A stretch of DNA of 64,000 nt from Bdellovibrio bacteriovorus (GTDB lineage Bacteria > Bdellovibrionota > Bdellovibrionia > Bdellovibrionales > Bdellovibrionaceae): positions 310,001-374,000 of the forward strand of contig NZ_CP020946.1 in assembly GCF_002208115.1 (NCBI RefSeq), in the 5' to 3' direction. The notes below the pieces were generated by a model. That model saw only the letters and a list, made by a program, of their open reading frames with translations. It was not told the DNA's origin and did not search any database. The translations under genes and the position numbers were made by a program. Every line of letters starts with the position of its first letter. Positions within the stretch are counted from its first letter, which is position 1. This document shows positions 21,829 to 27,392 of this stretch, in pieces.

Positions 21829-22203
21829 CTACTTATTGTTCTTGCGGTCTTCTTTGCGCTTTTCAGTGACTTTGTTTTTTGCGTTTACAAAAACCACTGT
21901 CGGCTCATGTTTCTTGGCTTCATCCATGCTCAGTCCGCAGTAAGAACAGATGATCACCAGATCGCCTTTTTGTACGTGACGGGCGGCAGCCCCATTCAGG
22001 CAGATTTCGCCCTTTTTACCCTTGATCACGTAAGTGGAAAAGCGCGCGCCGTTGTTGCAGTTGTAAATATCCACGCGTTCGTTCATCAACAAACCAGAGG
22101 CTTTGATCAGATCCGGACAGATGCTGACAGAGCCTTCATAGTTCAGATCGGCTCCGGTAACGGTGGCGCGGTGAATTTTGGTTCTAAGCAATGAAATATT
22201 CAT
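21829..22203 (-). CDS. panD: Aspartate 1-decarboxylase precursor
   Basis: 124 residues, typical length. It makes beta-alanine from aspartate for pantothenate synthesis. It is a self-processing pyruvoyl enzyme: the cleavage site is NYEGSVSI, between Gly24 and Ser25. Other family residues are KIHRATVT near the N-terminus and NNGARFSTYVI with the conserved NGA. The C-terminus is extended by a lysine-rich tail (KVTEKRKEDRKNNK). It lies 10 bases after coaX in the pan-coa unit. Confidence 0.95.
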   Translation of the reverse strand: MNISLLRTKIHRATVTGADLNYEGSVSICPDLIKASGLLMNERVDIYNCNNGARFSTYVIKGKKGEICLNGAAARHVQKGDLVIICSYCGLSMDEAKKHEPTVVFVNAKNKVTEKRKEDRKNNK

Positions 22204-22213
22204 AAATAAGTCC

Positions 22214-22984
22214 TTAAGCGTTGTGTTGCAGGGCGATCAGCATGCCTTTAAGAACAAGGTCCGGCACGATTTCGTCGAATACTTTTTCTTTTTCAAACAA
22301 ATAGGAAAAACCACCGGTCCCGATCACCATCGGGCGTTCCCCCTGGAAACACTCTTTGGTGATTCGTTCTGTCAGTTCCTTGATGGTGCCCAGATGACCA
22401 TAATAAAGACCCGACTGGATGCTTTCGATGGTCGCACGTCCCAGGGCCTCGTGCATGGCCACGATTTCCACGGACGGAAGCTTGGCCGTTTTGCTTTCCA
22501 AGGCCTCCATGCAAAGGCGCAATCCCGCCACGATGGATCCCCCCAGATAGTCCTTGTCCTTTGAAACCGCACAGAACGTGGTGGCCGTACCCAAGTCCAC
22601 CAGAATCAGATTCTTACCCGGATACAGGTGAGTCGCCGCAATGGAGTTGGCGATACGATCCGCGCCGACTTCCAGTGGGTTTCTGTATTTGATTTTCAGA
22701 CCGGTTTTAACGCCGGCCTGCAGAATGAACGGATTGATATTGAAATATTTCATGCAGGCGCCGCGCAGGGAATAGATCACTTCCGGTACGACGCTGCAGA
22801 TGGCGATTTGTTTCACCTTTGCAGGATCAAAGCCGTTTTCGCGAATGGCCGTGCGCAGGAAAATGCCGGTTTCATCGGAAGAAGCCCCGCTTTTGGAGTT
22901 CTTACGGAAAGACAGAACCATCTTGTCCTTATCAAAAAGCCCGGCATAAATCTGGGTGTTACCCACATCAAGACACAAAATCAT
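22214..22984 (-). CDS. coaX: Type III pantothenate kinase
   Basis: 256 residues. It phosphorylates pantothenate with ATP, the first step of CoA synthesis, and needs a monovalent cation. Visible motifs are [15 protein letters not shown] at the N-terminus (phosphate-binding loop with D-V-G-N-T), [16 protein letters not shown] (G-A-D-R), and [14 protein letters not shown] (D-x-G-T-A-T-T). The gene overlaps coaBC by 4 bases (ATGA), so expression is coupled. Confidence 0.95.
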
Positions 22985-24252
22985 AAAGAATCCTTTGGCA
23001 GCACCACACGAATCAGTTCACTGGTCAGTTGATCCAGATTTTCACAGGCAACAAAGCCTTCGTGATTGAACAGCGTGAACTTGTGGGTGCGGTTGACGAT
23101 ATCAATTTCGCTTAAATCATTGTGAACGACGAAGTCCGCGTGGGAGTTGGCAAAAAGCTTTTCCACGGCGTGGGCTCGCTGTTCAGGAGTGGCGTGACTG
23201 GTCAGTTTAAACGCAATCACTTTCAGGTCCTTGTTTTTTGAATAATCCTTCAGTCGGTCCACAATCTTGTAGTTGCGCTTCAGAACGATATTCATTTTAT
23301 CAGCGTCAGAGCTGACTTTCTTCACCTCAAACGGACGGAAACTTTGGCCATCGACTTCGATGTGGTCGACAGAATAGTCACTGACGGCGGCCGCATGGAT
23401 CACGTGGGTGAAATCCTCGGTGGAAAGGTAGTGCTTCATCTTTTCATCCAAAGTCGCAAAGCTGACGAACAGGTCACGGCGGGTGACGTGTTCAGACCTG
23501 GGTGAAGCATGGGCTTGCAGCAAGGTCACATCAAAGCCCATCTGGGTCATGTATTCAGCCAGCGCAATGCCGGTGCGGCCGGAGCTGAGGTTGCTGATCA
23601 CACGAACCGTGTCGATGGGCTCTTGCGTGCCCCCGGCAGTGATCAGGATTTTCACTTTGGAAAGAGCAGAAGACTTCGGAGCGACCGAGGCCGCTGCGGT
23701 GTCTTGCGCAGGTTTATGAAGCGCTTCCAAAGTCATTTTCAGAATCAGATCCGGTTCCAGCAGTTTGCCCCAGCCTTCTTCACCACAGGCTAGAATGCCG
23801 GAAGCTGTGTCCAGGATCTGCACACCCATCTCTTTCAGTGCGGTCAGGGATTTTTGTGTCACCGGGTGCAGATACATGCTGGTGTTCATGGCCGGAGCGA
23901 CCAGGAAGGGCTTTTTAAAGTCATGAGCCAGGAATAGAGTCTGCAGCAGATCATCACCCACACCTTGAGCGGCTTTATTGATGAAGTTCGCCGTGGCTGG
24001 TGCCACCAAAATCACATCCGCCCAACGCATCAGGTGGATATGATCCATGACGTTGCCCATGGCGTACATGTCACTGATCACGGGTTTGCCGGTCAGGCCT
24101 TCCAGGGTGGCGTTGCCGACAAACTTCAGCGCCGACGGGGAGGCCACAACCTGAACGTCACAGTTATTCTGCACCAGTCGGGAGACCACGTGACAGGCTT
24201 TGTAACAGGCAATCGAGCCTGTCATCATGAAGAGAACTTTAGATTTGGACAT
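22981..24252 (-). CDS. coaBC: Bifunctional phosphopantothenoylcysteine decarboxylase / phosphopantothenate-cysteine ligase
   Basis: 423 residues. The N-terminal flavoprotein domain (CoaC, about 1-180) shows [16 protein letters not shown], the [11 protein letters not shown]-type loop ([15 protein letters not shown]) and the substrate-clamp [11 protein letters not shown]. The C-terminal domain (CoaB) shows [20 protein letters not shown], a hallmark of the ligase, then [12 protein letters not shown] and [10 protein letters not shown]. Together they convert 4'-phosphopantothenate plus cysteine to 4'-phosphopantetheine. It overlaps panC by 14 bases and coaX by 4. Confidence 0.95.
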
Positions 24253-24994
24253 TGTCGATCAACCTCACTTCACCGAGTTTGGCGGCGACGAAGCGGCGGT
24301 TTCCCACATCCGTCACATAATCCACGATAAATCCCTGCGCTGACAAAGAAGCCGCAGCTTCCGCCGCGGTTTTGCTCTTCGTAATGGCTTTAAAGATGGC
24401 CGGTGCTTTCTTTCGCTCTTCCGGGGTTAGGCGCAGATTGCGCGAACTTTTAGCCAGACCGTCTTCTTCGCGCACGGTCGGGACCGGAACGATTTCCAGG
24501 TCCATGAAGAAGCTTTCCACCATGCCTTGAATCAGGGTCAACTGCTGGAAGTCCTTTTCGCCGAAATACGCCTTGGTCGGGCGAACCACATTGAAAAGTT
24601 TCATCACCACCGACAGCACACCATCAAAGTGGCCCGGGCGGTGGGCGCCATCCAGCAGGGTGGAATATTCATTTTCAGAAACTTTATAGCGGTAATTGTC
24701 CGGGTACATTTCCGGATAGCGTGGGAAAAAGATGGCATCGACGTTGTTTTTTTCGGCCATCGCCAGATCCTGATCCCAGGTCTGCGGATATTTTTCCAGA
24801 TCTTTTGGGTCATTGAACTGGGTCGGGTTCACGAAAATGGAAAGCACCACAAGGTCGTTGTTCTTGCGGGCTTGTTTGATCAGTTCCTCGTGGCCCGTGT
24901 GCAAAGCCCCCATGGTGGGAACAAAACCCACCGTGCCGGATTGCTTGCGGCGCCAGGCCTGAAATTCGGAAGGAGAGCGCAGGACCTGTGTCAT
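24239..24994 (-). CDS. panC: Pantothenate synthetase
   Basis: 251 residues. It joins pantoate and beta-alanine using ATP. Class I synthetase-like HIGH signature MGALHTGHEELIKQAR (HTGH) and the family segments FVNPTQFNDPKDLEKYP, GHFDGVLSVVMKLFNVVRP, and YFGEKDFQQLTLI are all present; KSSRNLRLTPEER matches the KMSKS-like region S-S-R-N. It overlaps the panB stop by 4 bases. Slightly shorter than the usual 280 residues but no domain is missing. Confidence 0.95.
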   Translation of the reverse strand: MTQVLRSPSEFQAWRRKQSGTVGFVPTMGALHTGHEELIKQARKNNDLVVLSIFVNPTQFNDPKDLEKYPQTWDQDLAMAEKNNVDAIFFPRYPEMYPDNYRYKVSENEYSTLLDGAHRPGHFDGVLSVVMKLFNVVRPTKAYFGEKDFQQLTLIQGMVESFFMDLEIVPVPTVREEDGLAKSSRNLRLTPEERKKAPAIFKAITKSKTAAEAAASLSAQGFIVDYVTDVGNRRFVAAKLGEVRLIDNVQI

Positions 24995-25782
24995 GAATAG
25001 CTCTCTTTCTCGGAAGGGAAGGTTTCAGCGCTGACTTCCTGATGGTACTTGTTCAAAGCGCCTTTGATGGTGTTAAAGCCATCAAGGTATGTTTTTACGA
25101 ACTTCGGTTTGAATCCCTGGTTCATGCCCAGCAAGTCCTGCAGGACCAGCACCTGACCGTCGCAATCCACACCCGCACCGATTCCGATGGTTGGAATCTC
25201 CAGTGCCGCCGTGATTTCTTTGGCCAGTTTCGAAGGGACACATTCAAGGACGACCGAAAAGGCGCCAGCTTCCTGCAATTGCAAAGCGGCTTCCAGAATT
25301 TTCTTCTGCGCTTTTTCATCGCGGCCCTGAACTTTGAATCCGCCCAGTTGATTGACGGATTGCGGGGTCAGCCCCAAGTGCCCCATCACCGGAACACCAG
25401 AATCCACCAGATGGCGGACCAGCTTCAGGTTTCCGGCAGCGCCTTCCAGCTTCACGGCGTGAGCGCCGGCTTTCATGACTTTTTCCACCGCGGTCATATT
25501 GGCCGTCAGGCCTTTGCGATAGCTCATGAATGGCAGATCGGCGATCACAAACTTATCACCAGCCCCGCGCACAACCGCGGCCGTGTGATGAGCCATGACA
25601 CTGGCTGAAACATCCAGCGTGGTGGAATGCCCCAACATCACCATCGCCAAAGAGTCTCCGACCAGAATGCAGTCGATATCACTGTCGGCCACAATGCGCG
25701 CGAAGGAATAGTCGTAGCAGGTGATCATCGAGATCTTTTGCTTTTTGCTTTTCTTGTCATGGAAATCGAGGATGGTTTTCAT
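24991..25782 (-). CDS. panB: 3-methyl-2-oxobutanoate hydroxymethyltransferase
   Basis: 263 residues. It adds a hydroxymethyl group from methylene-tetrahydrofolate to 2-ketoisovalerate, making ketopantoate. Visible motifs are KISMITCYDYSFARIV, DCILVGDSLAMVMLGH, VIADLPFMSYRKG, and VLECVPSKLAKEITA followed by GIGAGVDCDGQVLVLQDLLG. ATG 25782 (MKTILDFHDKK) is 7 bases after the stop of the upstream reductase-like gene, with AGGG in range; a longer reading would overlap that gene. Confidence 0.95.
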   Translation of the reverse strand: MKTILDFHDKKSKKQKISMITCYDYSFARIVADSDIDCILVGDSLAMVMLGHSTTLDVSASVMAHHTAAVVRGAGDKFVIADLPFMSYRKGLTANMTAVEKVMKAGAHAVKLEGAAGNLKLVRHLVDSGVPVMGHLGLTPQSVNQLGGFKVQGRDEKAQKKILEAALQLQEAGAFSVVLECVPSKLAKEITAALEIPTIGIGAGVDCDGQVLVLQDLLGMNQGFKPKFVKTYLDGFNTIKGALNKYHQEVSAETFPSEKESYS

Positions 25783-25789
25783 AGGGCCC

Positions 25790-26509
25790 TCACTTTCGCG
25801 GATACTCAGGCCAAAGGGTTTCAAGAAAGGCTTTGTACACAGCCTGATAAGGATCATCGTTTAAGGCCTGCAGATTCTTTTCGACTGTGGCGGCATCTTT
25901 GCGCGCCAACGGGCCGGTGAAGGCATCTCCAGGGTTCGCCAAAGTGTTCTGTATCACTCTTTCAATATAAGGCTTGGCGGCACTTTGCGGTATTTTCATC
26001 TCGGCAAAGCCATCCAGCATCTTGGCAAGCAACAAAGTGGTGAAGTTTCCACCGAGCACACACAAGGCGTGATACCGGGCTTTTTCAAAGGCGAAGATGT
26101 TGGAATAAGAATTAGGAAGTCCCGGCAGGGCCTCAATCAGGGAATCACATCCGGTCAGTGCAAAGTGAATCTGCTGGTAGGTGGACAGATCGTAAAGATC
26201 CGGACCAAAGGTCATCAGCGGGTGTGCTGCGATCATTCCTTTGAAGTACAGTGCACCCGAGAAATGCACGAGCGTTTTGTCTTCATGCTGGGCCAAGTGC
26301 TCTTGATAAAAGGACTCCAGCGCACTGTCGCTAATAGCCAGCAGAATATGCGAGCTCGCAGAAACTTTGCCCGCCAAAGCAGAGATGTCCTCGCTGCGGT
26401 CCCAGGTCTGGTATTTTAGATTGAGTAAATGGAAATAGTGGGCGACATGTCGGGCGACACGGCCAGAGCCAATAATAAGAAATGTAGGAACAGTCTTTGT
26501 CGCATTCAT
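25790..26509 (-). CDS. panG: Rossmann/DUF2520 protein, probable ketopantoate reductase of the PanG type
   Basis: 239 residues. An N-terminal NAD(P)-binding Rossmann domain (FLIIGSGRVARHVAHYF, G-x-G-x-x-A at residues 14-19; ILLAISDSALESF) is followed by a helical DUF2520-type domain (HALCVLGGNFTTLLLAK). This architecture matches PanG, the alternative ketopantoate reductase described in Francisella. It is the first gene of a unit that otherwise contains panB and panC but no panE, so it fills the missing step (ketopantoate to pantoate). Family assignment is from memory of the domain order; function is inferred from context. ATG 26509 begins the Rossmann motif; upstream in-frame sequence reaches into the divergent promoter. 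Confidence 0.75.
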   Translation of the reverse strand: MNATKTVPTFLIIGSGRVARHVAHYFHLLNLKYQTWDRSEDISALAGKVSASSHILLAISDSALESFYQEHLAQHEDKTLVHFSGALYFKGMIAAHPLMTFGPDLYDLSTYQQIHFALTGCDSLIEALPGLPNSYSNIFAFEKARYHALCVLGGNFTTLLLAKMLDGFAEMKIPQSAAKPYIERVIQNTLANPGDAFTGPLARKDAATVEKNLQALNDDPYQAVYKAFLETLWPEYPRK

Positions 26510-26657
26510 ATGTGGGTACCTGTCCTTTGCGGGATCAAGTCCTCTGTAATGTTCGCAACCTAACATAATTCTAACAGATTTCAACGATTCTTGCCAATAT
26601 GCGTAAATGCGGCCGTGGGCGCTGGACTTAGCTCTTAAACTAAGTAAAGTTCCGCTC

Positions 26658-27392
26658 ATGAAATACTTGTACTGGATCAGCGCCGTCGCCGTGATTGCAT
26701 TGGGTGTGTTTTTCTCCATGAATTTTCAGATTCAGGAACGCTCTATTCCCAAAATCAAATTTTCTCAGGTTGAAGTTCCTGAAAAGATGGGAAAAGGCAT
26801 TTACGAAAGACTGCGCATGGAAATCAAAAATGCGCCGATCGTATTTCTGGGTGTGACTCCGGGCCAAATCGAGGATCTGGAACTGTGGAGAGGCTTTATG
26901 GAGGCCAATCAAGAGCAGGGTTCCAAGTACGACGTGATTGTCGTGGACCCGCAACTGCCTTACGTGGAGCTTTTCAATTCCACCATGCGCCTGGATGTCC
27001 AAAATGAAATGCCCCGTTTTGTCGAGGGCGTGAACAACGCTCGTGCGCAAGGGCTGCGAGTGGCCGTGATAGTGCCTTACATTTATTCTTCGCAACTTGT
27101 GAAAAAAGGCCCTGCCAATCGTCTGAAGGAAGAGTACAAGATGGACGTGACAAGTTTCTCGGTGATGAAATTCCCGGTGACTCGCGAGCAGGAAGAAACC
27201 TTCCAGCCTGTGTGTGATCTGGATGGCACAAGAGACCTTGCCGGCACCGGACATCTGGGCTGCATGGTTATCGAAGTGGCACGCAAAACGTACCGCAAGA
27301 AATTTGAAGAAAACAAATACTCAGGCATGATGGAACAAACCGGCGCCAAAGACTACATCGTGCTACTAAACCGCAACGCCAGCCCCCGCTAA
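26658..27392 (+). CDS. Membrane-anchored protein, unknown function
   Basis: 244 residues from ATG 26658 (a further in-frame start at 26607 has no ribosome-binding site). One hydrophobic segment (YLYWISAVAVIALGVFFSM, residues 3-22) anchors or exports it; the rest is periplasmic with alternating strands and helices such as APIVFLGVTPGQIEDLELW and KYDVIVVDPQLPYVEL, reminiscent of an SGNH-like or Rossmann-like alpha/beta fold, but no catalytic motif can be named. The gene is divergent from the pan operon across 148 bases. Confidence 0.7.
   Translation: MKYLYWISAVAVIALGVFFSMNFQIQERSIPKIKFSQVEVPEKMGKGIYERLRMEIKNAPIVFLGVTPGQIEDLELWRGFMEANQEQGSKYDVIVVDPQLPYVELFNSTMRLDVQNEMPRFVEGVNNARAQGLRVAVIVPYIYSSQLVKKGPANRLKEEYKMDVTSFSVMKFPVTREQEETFQPVCDLDGTRDLAGTGHLGCMVIEVARKTYRKKFEENKYSGMMEQTGAKDYIVLLNRNASPR

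Follow-up and report, generated by a model that had tools for sequence, protein, structure and literature searches.

The panG locus

The window analyzed here is a stretch of 64,000 nucleotides (nt) of the Bdellovibrio bacteriovorus genome (contig NZ_CP020946.1), in which a minus-strand gene encoding a DUF2520 protein stands at the head of a set of genes for pantothenate and coenzyme A (CoA) synthesis, with a small RNA hairpin directly before its start codon. We consider it very likely that this gene, panG, completes the synthesis of pantothenate in a predator lacking both PanE and IlvC, and that the hairpin, a solo form of the pan RNA motif, probably controls the operon at the start of translation. 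The features of the locus are as follows.

26515..26542, minus strand: pan-motif-type RNA hairpin with 9 pairs, two bulged A and an 8-nt loop (covarying 54-sequence alignment)
25790..26509, minus strand: panG, 239 amino acids, predicted NADPH-dependent ketopantoate reductase (PF10728, 1.3e-15; the single DUF2520 of the genome; model with a predicted local distance difference test score, pLDDT, of 95.4)
24991..25782, minus strand: panB, ketopantoate hydroxymethyltransferase, 7 nt after panG (PF02548, 9.9e-109)
24239..24994, minus strand: panC, pantoate-beta-alanine ligase, with a 4-nt overlap with panB (PF02569, 7.1e-90)
22981..24252, minus strand: coaBC, phosphopantothenoylcysteine synthetase/decarboxylase (PF04127, 1.1e-33; PF02441, 1.4e-27)
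22214..22984, minus strand: coaX, type III pantothenate kinase (PF03309, 1.2e-68)
21829..22203, minus strand: panD, aspartate 1-decarboxylase (PF02261, 5.6e-47)

The genes panG-panB-panC-coaBC-coaX-panD form an unbroken same-strand run, with gaps or overlaps of a few bases between them. The strong Pfam matches of the five downstream genes bear out the initial annotation, which had described the gene as heading a pan-coa run, and its remark that the operon contains no panE also holds. The panG reading frame is open and complete, with the stop codon at 25790. Upstream of 26509 the frame continues as far as an ATG at 26719; the start at 26509 is the one favoured by homologous proteins and by the conserved hairpin directly before it. 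A plus-strand gene (26607-27392) diverges from panG, its start lying less than 100 nt away, and since the panG frame stays open across it to 26719, an automatic annotation may set the panG start too long.

In the Pfam search, DUF2520 covers residues 133-227 of the protein (57.7 bits, with a cut-off of 25), and an N-terminal NAD-binding match at residues 9-44 is below threshold. The AlphaFold model (the pLDDT given above is the mean) has an alpha/beta, Rossmann-like N-terminal part and a helical C-terminal part. Its top folds in the PDB, BF3122 (3d1l) and TM1727 (2i76), are DUF2520 proteins; imine reductases and ketol-acid reductoisomerases (KARI, including 4xeh) come next. The Rossmann plus DUF2520 architecture proposed earlier is thus found by the Pfam score, the structure model and the fold search alike, and the model supports the assignment of the protein as a Rossmann dehydrogenase, presumably of the 6-phosphogluconate-dehydrogenase-like type, a label of our own.

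The genome, one contig of 3,769,537 bases rated 100% complete, was searched with profiles for other ketopantoate reductases. A panE elsewhere, which the initial annotation had left to be looked for, was not found: the C-terminal domain of PanE (ApbA_C, PF08546) has no match in the whole genome, nor in the window PanG itself. The single weak match to the ApbA N-terminal domain, a candidate for a second PanE, turned out to be ProC. The IlvC route is absent too, the C-terminal domain of IlvC (KARI_C) having no match in the whole genome; this rules out IlvC as a hidden reductase, and the lone weak KARI_N match lies in a protein that we take, from our own reading of its sequence, to be S-adenosylhomocysteinase. 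DUF2520, on the other hand, occurs once genome-wide. As for the missing ALTERNATIVES, the absence of ApbA_C and KARI_C removes two of the three known kinds of ketopantoate reductase and leaves the DUF2520 kind alone.

DUF2520 and KARI in the phylum

The distribution of these enzymes was followed in 144 genomes of the Bdellovibrionota, drawn evenly, with the PanE, KARI and DUF2520 calls each made from one profile. DUF2520 is present in 58 of them, PanB in 124, ApbA_C in 7, KARI_C in 62, and IlvD in 1 (the IlvD search was positive in 14/14 control genomes). The genomes with PanB divide into 58 that have DUF2520 without KARI, 59 that have KARI without DUF2520, and seven that have neither; the two occur together in 0 of the 124 and, likewise, in 0/144 overall. 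Among the 20 genomes without PanB, DUF2520 is found in none and KARI in three. In 57/58 genomes, G023 being the exception, a PanB match on the same strand follows the end of the DUF2520 match after 12-113 nt. Gene context, the absence of alternatives and this phylum-wide exclusivity support the earlier proposal that the DUF2520 gene fills the missing reductase step; the assignment as PanG, made from context, is well supported, and the protein would catalyze the reduction.

Two of the seven PanB genomes that have neither protein (G031 and G046) have ApbA_C. A third, G043, has a PanG that was located through a hairpin about 720 nt before panB: the open reading frame between the two matches the panG profile with 3.5e-58, and PF10728 had missed it. 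In the remaining four, G001 (L086), G020 (L084), G052 (L085) and G054 (L083), panB is present and no PanG, KARI or PanE was found with the profiles; the completeness of these genomes is 80, 93, 61 and 94%, respectively, and either sequence missing from the assembly or a further reductase must be invoked. ApbA_C occurs together with KARI in one genome, G039. Four families (f13, f14, f17 and f23) each hold both the DUF2520 and the KARI arrangement, in different genomes, and the swap must therefore have occurred more than once or by transfer.

In 36 of the 62 genomes with KARI, a gap of 6-143 nt separates the KARI match from the PanB match downstream, which puts KARI in the same slot as panG. These panB-linked matches score 65.6-107.9 bits, compared with 120.4-222.8 bits for the unlinked ones, and the ranges do not overlap; two panB-linked proteins reach 178 and 172 bits on TIGR00465 of NCBIfam, where the cut-off is 226. 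The KARI-like protein resembles PanG in its place before panB and, distantly, in its fold (4xeh), but it is of an unrelated subfamily and is absent from the window genome. IlvD was found in a single one of the 62 KARI genomes, G026, and ilvD is absent from 143/144 genomes of the phylum, so that in the other 61 KARI cannot take part in branched-chain synthesis in its usual scheme. The loss of Mg-binding residues was considered as a mark of the panB-linked proteins and rejected, because in an alignment of 17 of the 36 with three unlinked ones the acidic residues, presumably the metal ligands, look kept. The case for a dedicated KARI therefore rests on the missing ilvD and on position. IlvC can reduce ketopantoate (PMC11487621). 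Judging from its presence and position, the panB-linked KARI-like protein probably serves only as a ketopantoate reductase.

Examples of panB-linked KARI-like genes among L034-L050 are L034:3348-4313 and L048:3726-4697, both on the minus strand. A class IV aminotransferase-like gene is divergent beside the KARI-panB run at both (L034:4353-5150 and L048:4731-5528, plus strand). Its best matches, which are below threshold, are aminodeoxychorismate lyase and branched-chain aminotransferase, and it might supply 2-oxoisovalerate.

The hairpin at the panG start

The initial annotation overlooked the KARI-like gene that other genomes have in the place of panG and also the RNA hairpin at the panG start. 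The latter, GGACTTGATC-CCGCAAAG-GACAGGTACC, runs from 26542 to 26515 on the minus strand and ends 5 nt before the panG ATG. Its arms form 2 + 5 + 2 base pairs, and each strand has one bulged A. Of the 59 DUF2520 genes in the phylum, which come from 58 genomes (G022 has two), 55 are preceded by a hairpin with at least eight of the nine pairs. The hairpin is absent at L004, L020, L069 and L077, L020 being the one DUF2520 gene that does not adjoin panB. Both bulged positions are A in 56/56 hairpin candidates, and the spacers of the 55 are between 4 and 34 nt long. The start codon lies within the loop, in frame, in 22 of the 55 cases and 0-45 nt after the hairpin in the other 33. The N-terminal "M(R/G)QVP" of homologues was considered as a peptide motif and rejected, the same bases being out of frame or before the start elsewhere.

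The alignment of the hairpin (A2) holds 54 sequences, 51 of them distinct, L012 with its 34-nt loop having been left out. In these sequences, chosen partly for pairing, which favours the structure, standard pairs are found in 99.6% of 459 cells, and five of the nine pairs show changes on both sides (11 cells; the shuffled means are 0.6 for both). The observed covariation was reached by 0/500 shuffles on any of five measures, and versions slid along the alignment pair in 31-47% of cells. RNAalifold without a supplied structure gives the same nine pairs.

In the window genome the hairpin is the sole copy at E <= 0.1, and its exact pattern occurs once; genome G069 has the same panG and hairpin. 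Strong matches of our hairpin model R1 (E <= 4e-4) occur in 54 of the 144 genomes, one in each and every one before panG, the genomes being 53 with DUF2520 together with G043. Nine further matches (E 0.0018-0.092) lie away from panB, which is about chance level for 144 genomes. No R1 match was found at the slot in the 36 genomes with panB-linked KARI; the best of 17 loci searched directly gave 11.8 bits (E 1.3). In the Bdellovibrionota the hairpin hence goes with panG.

Relation to the pan motif

A scan of 84,980 species for the exact pattern GGACTTGATC N3-17 GACAGGTACC gave at least 114 stretches, 80 loci of which are listed; about 8 chance matches would be expected over the whole collection, according to our estimate from base counts. 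All 80 listed loci stand at pantothenate or CoA genes, the next gene being PanG in 29 and PanB in 50, with L178 having only CoaX. By record title, rather than by tested placement, the listed loci belong to at least eight phylum-level groups, namely Gammaproteobacteria (many of them Legionella), Bdellovibrionota, Ignavibacteria with Cytophagales, Acidobacteria groups, Elusimicrobia, Marinimicrobia, Spirochaetales and Verrucomicrobia groups. In 29/80 listed loci the 150 nt upstream hold a second two-bulge hairpin with another sequence; the 150 nt downstream hold one in 0/80, and the frequency elsewhere is 4 per 1.14 Mb. There is no such second hairpin before the window panG, and in the phylum it is found at 1/55.

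This form is that of the pan motif, RF01749, reported by Weinberg et al. in 2010 (PMC2864571) as a stem with two bulged A upstream of pan genes, mostly in tandem, in three phyla and with no known partner. The window hairpin likewise has two bulged A in its stem and stands upstream of pan genes. It differs in being single, in touching the start codon and in falling below Rfam scoring, and its pattern spans at least eight groups rather than three phyla. RF01749 matches the tandem locus L174 (2338-2420, minus strand) with 33.1 bits, just under the gathering threshold of 36.2 (E 1.5e-4 in a short stretch), and its 3' hairpin aligns there to the window-type hairpin; the model thus seems too narrow. 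It gave no match to the tandem locus L114 or to L147, and at the gathering threshold it found 0/18 pattern loci. Since structure and context agree, we file the hairpin as a pan RNA, in a solo form that lies outside the Rfam model. In the later literature, of which our search covered few subscription journals, we found besides PMC2864571 only the use of the pan motif in annotation, in PMC5670726.

It is worth mentioning that at Legionella loci (L112:3135-3159 on the minus strand, L114:4663-4687 on the plus strand, and others) the hairpin has an ATG after GGAGG, apparently opening a short frame before panB. This frame is possibly a leader peptide coupled to panB.

Proposed pathway and alternatives

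In the pathway that we propose, prey-derived valine would be deaminated to 2-oxoisovalerate, to which PanB would add the hydroxymethyl group. PanG, an uncommon enzyme for a step that PanE performs in most bacteria, would then reduce ketopantoate to pantoate in an NADPH-dependent reaction, PanC would join pantoate to the beta-alanine provided by PanD, and CoaX and CoaBC would take pantothenate towards CoA. A protein, most likely, or a metabolite would recognize the two bulged adenosines and stabilize the hairpin, which would hide the ribosome site. Because the start codon of the first gene lies inside the hairpin or abuts it, such stabilizing binding would block the initiation of the whole run, and the hairpin is thus most likely a translational operator. 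A protein binder is suggested by the simplicity of the hairpin and by the tandem form, which is how the authors of 2010 argued for a protein over a metabolite (PMC2864571). It is unlikely that PanG itself is the obligate binder, since 50/80 listed pattern loci have panB first.

An alternative scenario is that the DUF2520 protein belongs to another pathway and merely lies in the operon, pantoate or pantothenate being obtained from the prey. The auxotrophy of the iCH457 genome-scale model of B. bacteriovorus HD100, which requires external pantothenate (PMC7529429), would then be correct, and DUF2520 relatives do occur in other gene contexts. However, without a reductase panB and panC would have no use, and both are nevertheless retained in a run with panD, coaX and coaBC; DUF2520 is found only alongside panB (58 of 124 genomes with it, 0 of 20 without), and in 36 other genomes a KARI-like gene takes the same place. 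This scenario is therefore considered unlikely. The least probable of the alternatives is that another, unrecognized dehydrogenase reduces ketopantoate and PanG is an accessory protein. Promiscuous reduction has a precedent in B. subtilis, where three enzymes, IlvC among them, have to be lost before a requirement shows (PMC11487621), and the four panB genomes in which no PanG, KARI or PanE was found are compatible with another enzyme as well as with missing sequence; an accessory PanG would nevertheless leave the strict exclusivity of DUF2520 and KARI unexplained.

Another reading considered is that the element acts as DNA, as the operator of a repressor, which two half-sites near the start codon would fit. 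The arms, however, pair only when the strand folds on itself as RNA does, with two single bulges and many G-U pairs (45 of the 51 distinct rows at one position), the spacer length is variable, and the changes preserve pairing rather than sequence. The same two-bulge form is, moreover, a published RNA motif (PMC2864571, RF01749), and a DNA operator is accordingly very unlikely.

A number of results weigh against panG as the missing reductase and its hairpin as a pan RNA. The 121-nt surroundings of the window hairpin fold no better than shuffles (z 0.51), and Rfam finds nothing in the window, even at E <= 10. ApbA_C and DUF2520 occur together in G090 and G129, and Bacteroides ihuae likewise has both. 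DUF2520 relatives with 25-28% identity are present on eleven plasmid records; of the four plasmid regions opened, one (Tsukamurella) has the gene before panC-panD-coaX, and three have other surroundings. These other contexts imply that the domain alone does not identify a PanG; context does.

With panG as the reductase, the vitamin B5 pathway of the predator no longer has a gap, and the locus contradicts the pantothenate auxotrophy of HD100 in the published model (PMC7529429). One enzyme step is then provided by two unrelated proteins at the same operon place within one phylum, KARI being retained without the rest of the branched-chain pathway. The pan RNA motif of 2010 becomes linked to many more groups and to a start codon, which offers genetically simple systems in which to seek its binder. 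The start-codon hairpin and the replacement of PanG by a KARI-like protein are in fact more interesting than the gene itself. Taken jointly, the pan hairpin may be a translational operator in at least eight groups, solo at the panG start and in tandem before panB, with a conserved protein binder, and the panB-linked KARI-like protein may be a dedicated ketopantoate reductase without ilvD; we put forward this combined proposal tentatively, as somewhat less than an even chance. If true, one RNA-based control of vitamin B5 synthesis would be shared by many bacteria, and the KARI-like protein would be a further origin of ketopantoate reductase besides PanE and PanG.

Relation to known DUF2520 proteins

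DUF2520 proteins acting as PanG have been described, with homologues in Enterococcus, Francisella and Clostridium difficile (PMC4572677, citing Miller et al. 2013). The name PanG has also been applied to YkpB of B. subtilis, a PanE-family protein distinct from the DUF2520 PanG (PMC11487621). From the description of the homologues, the window protein is like the Francisella PanG in having the Rossmann and DUF2520 parts and in replacing a missing PanE; it is unlike it in that the gene belongs to a predator, stands first in a run of six pan-coa genes and bears a pan-type hairpin at its start. The initial annotation had expected such a find in a predator to extend the family. A DUF2520 panG is indeed present, but this adds only modestly to what is known, since DUF2520 genes commonly precede panB in the Bdellovibrionota and in several other phyla.

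TM1727 (2i76) and BF3122 (3d1l), the best folds, also give profile matches (3.6e-22 and 1.3e-24, respectively), but their identity to the window protein is 19-21%, and their structure entries assign no function. Like the window genome, Thermotoga maritima is without ApbA_C; unlike it, T. maritima has KARI and IlvD and so does not depend on a PanG. Asn133 was examined as a PanG-specific residue, being Asn in the panB-linked proteins and Ala or Gly in four other DUF2520 proteins, but it is Asn in 3d1l as well and hence not a clean marker. In a quick tree of 89 PanG/DUF2520 proteins, which has long branches, the four outsiders, non-pan or panC-linked, are placed together at one side with a support of 91, and the outer groups and the Bdellovibrionota are intermixed.
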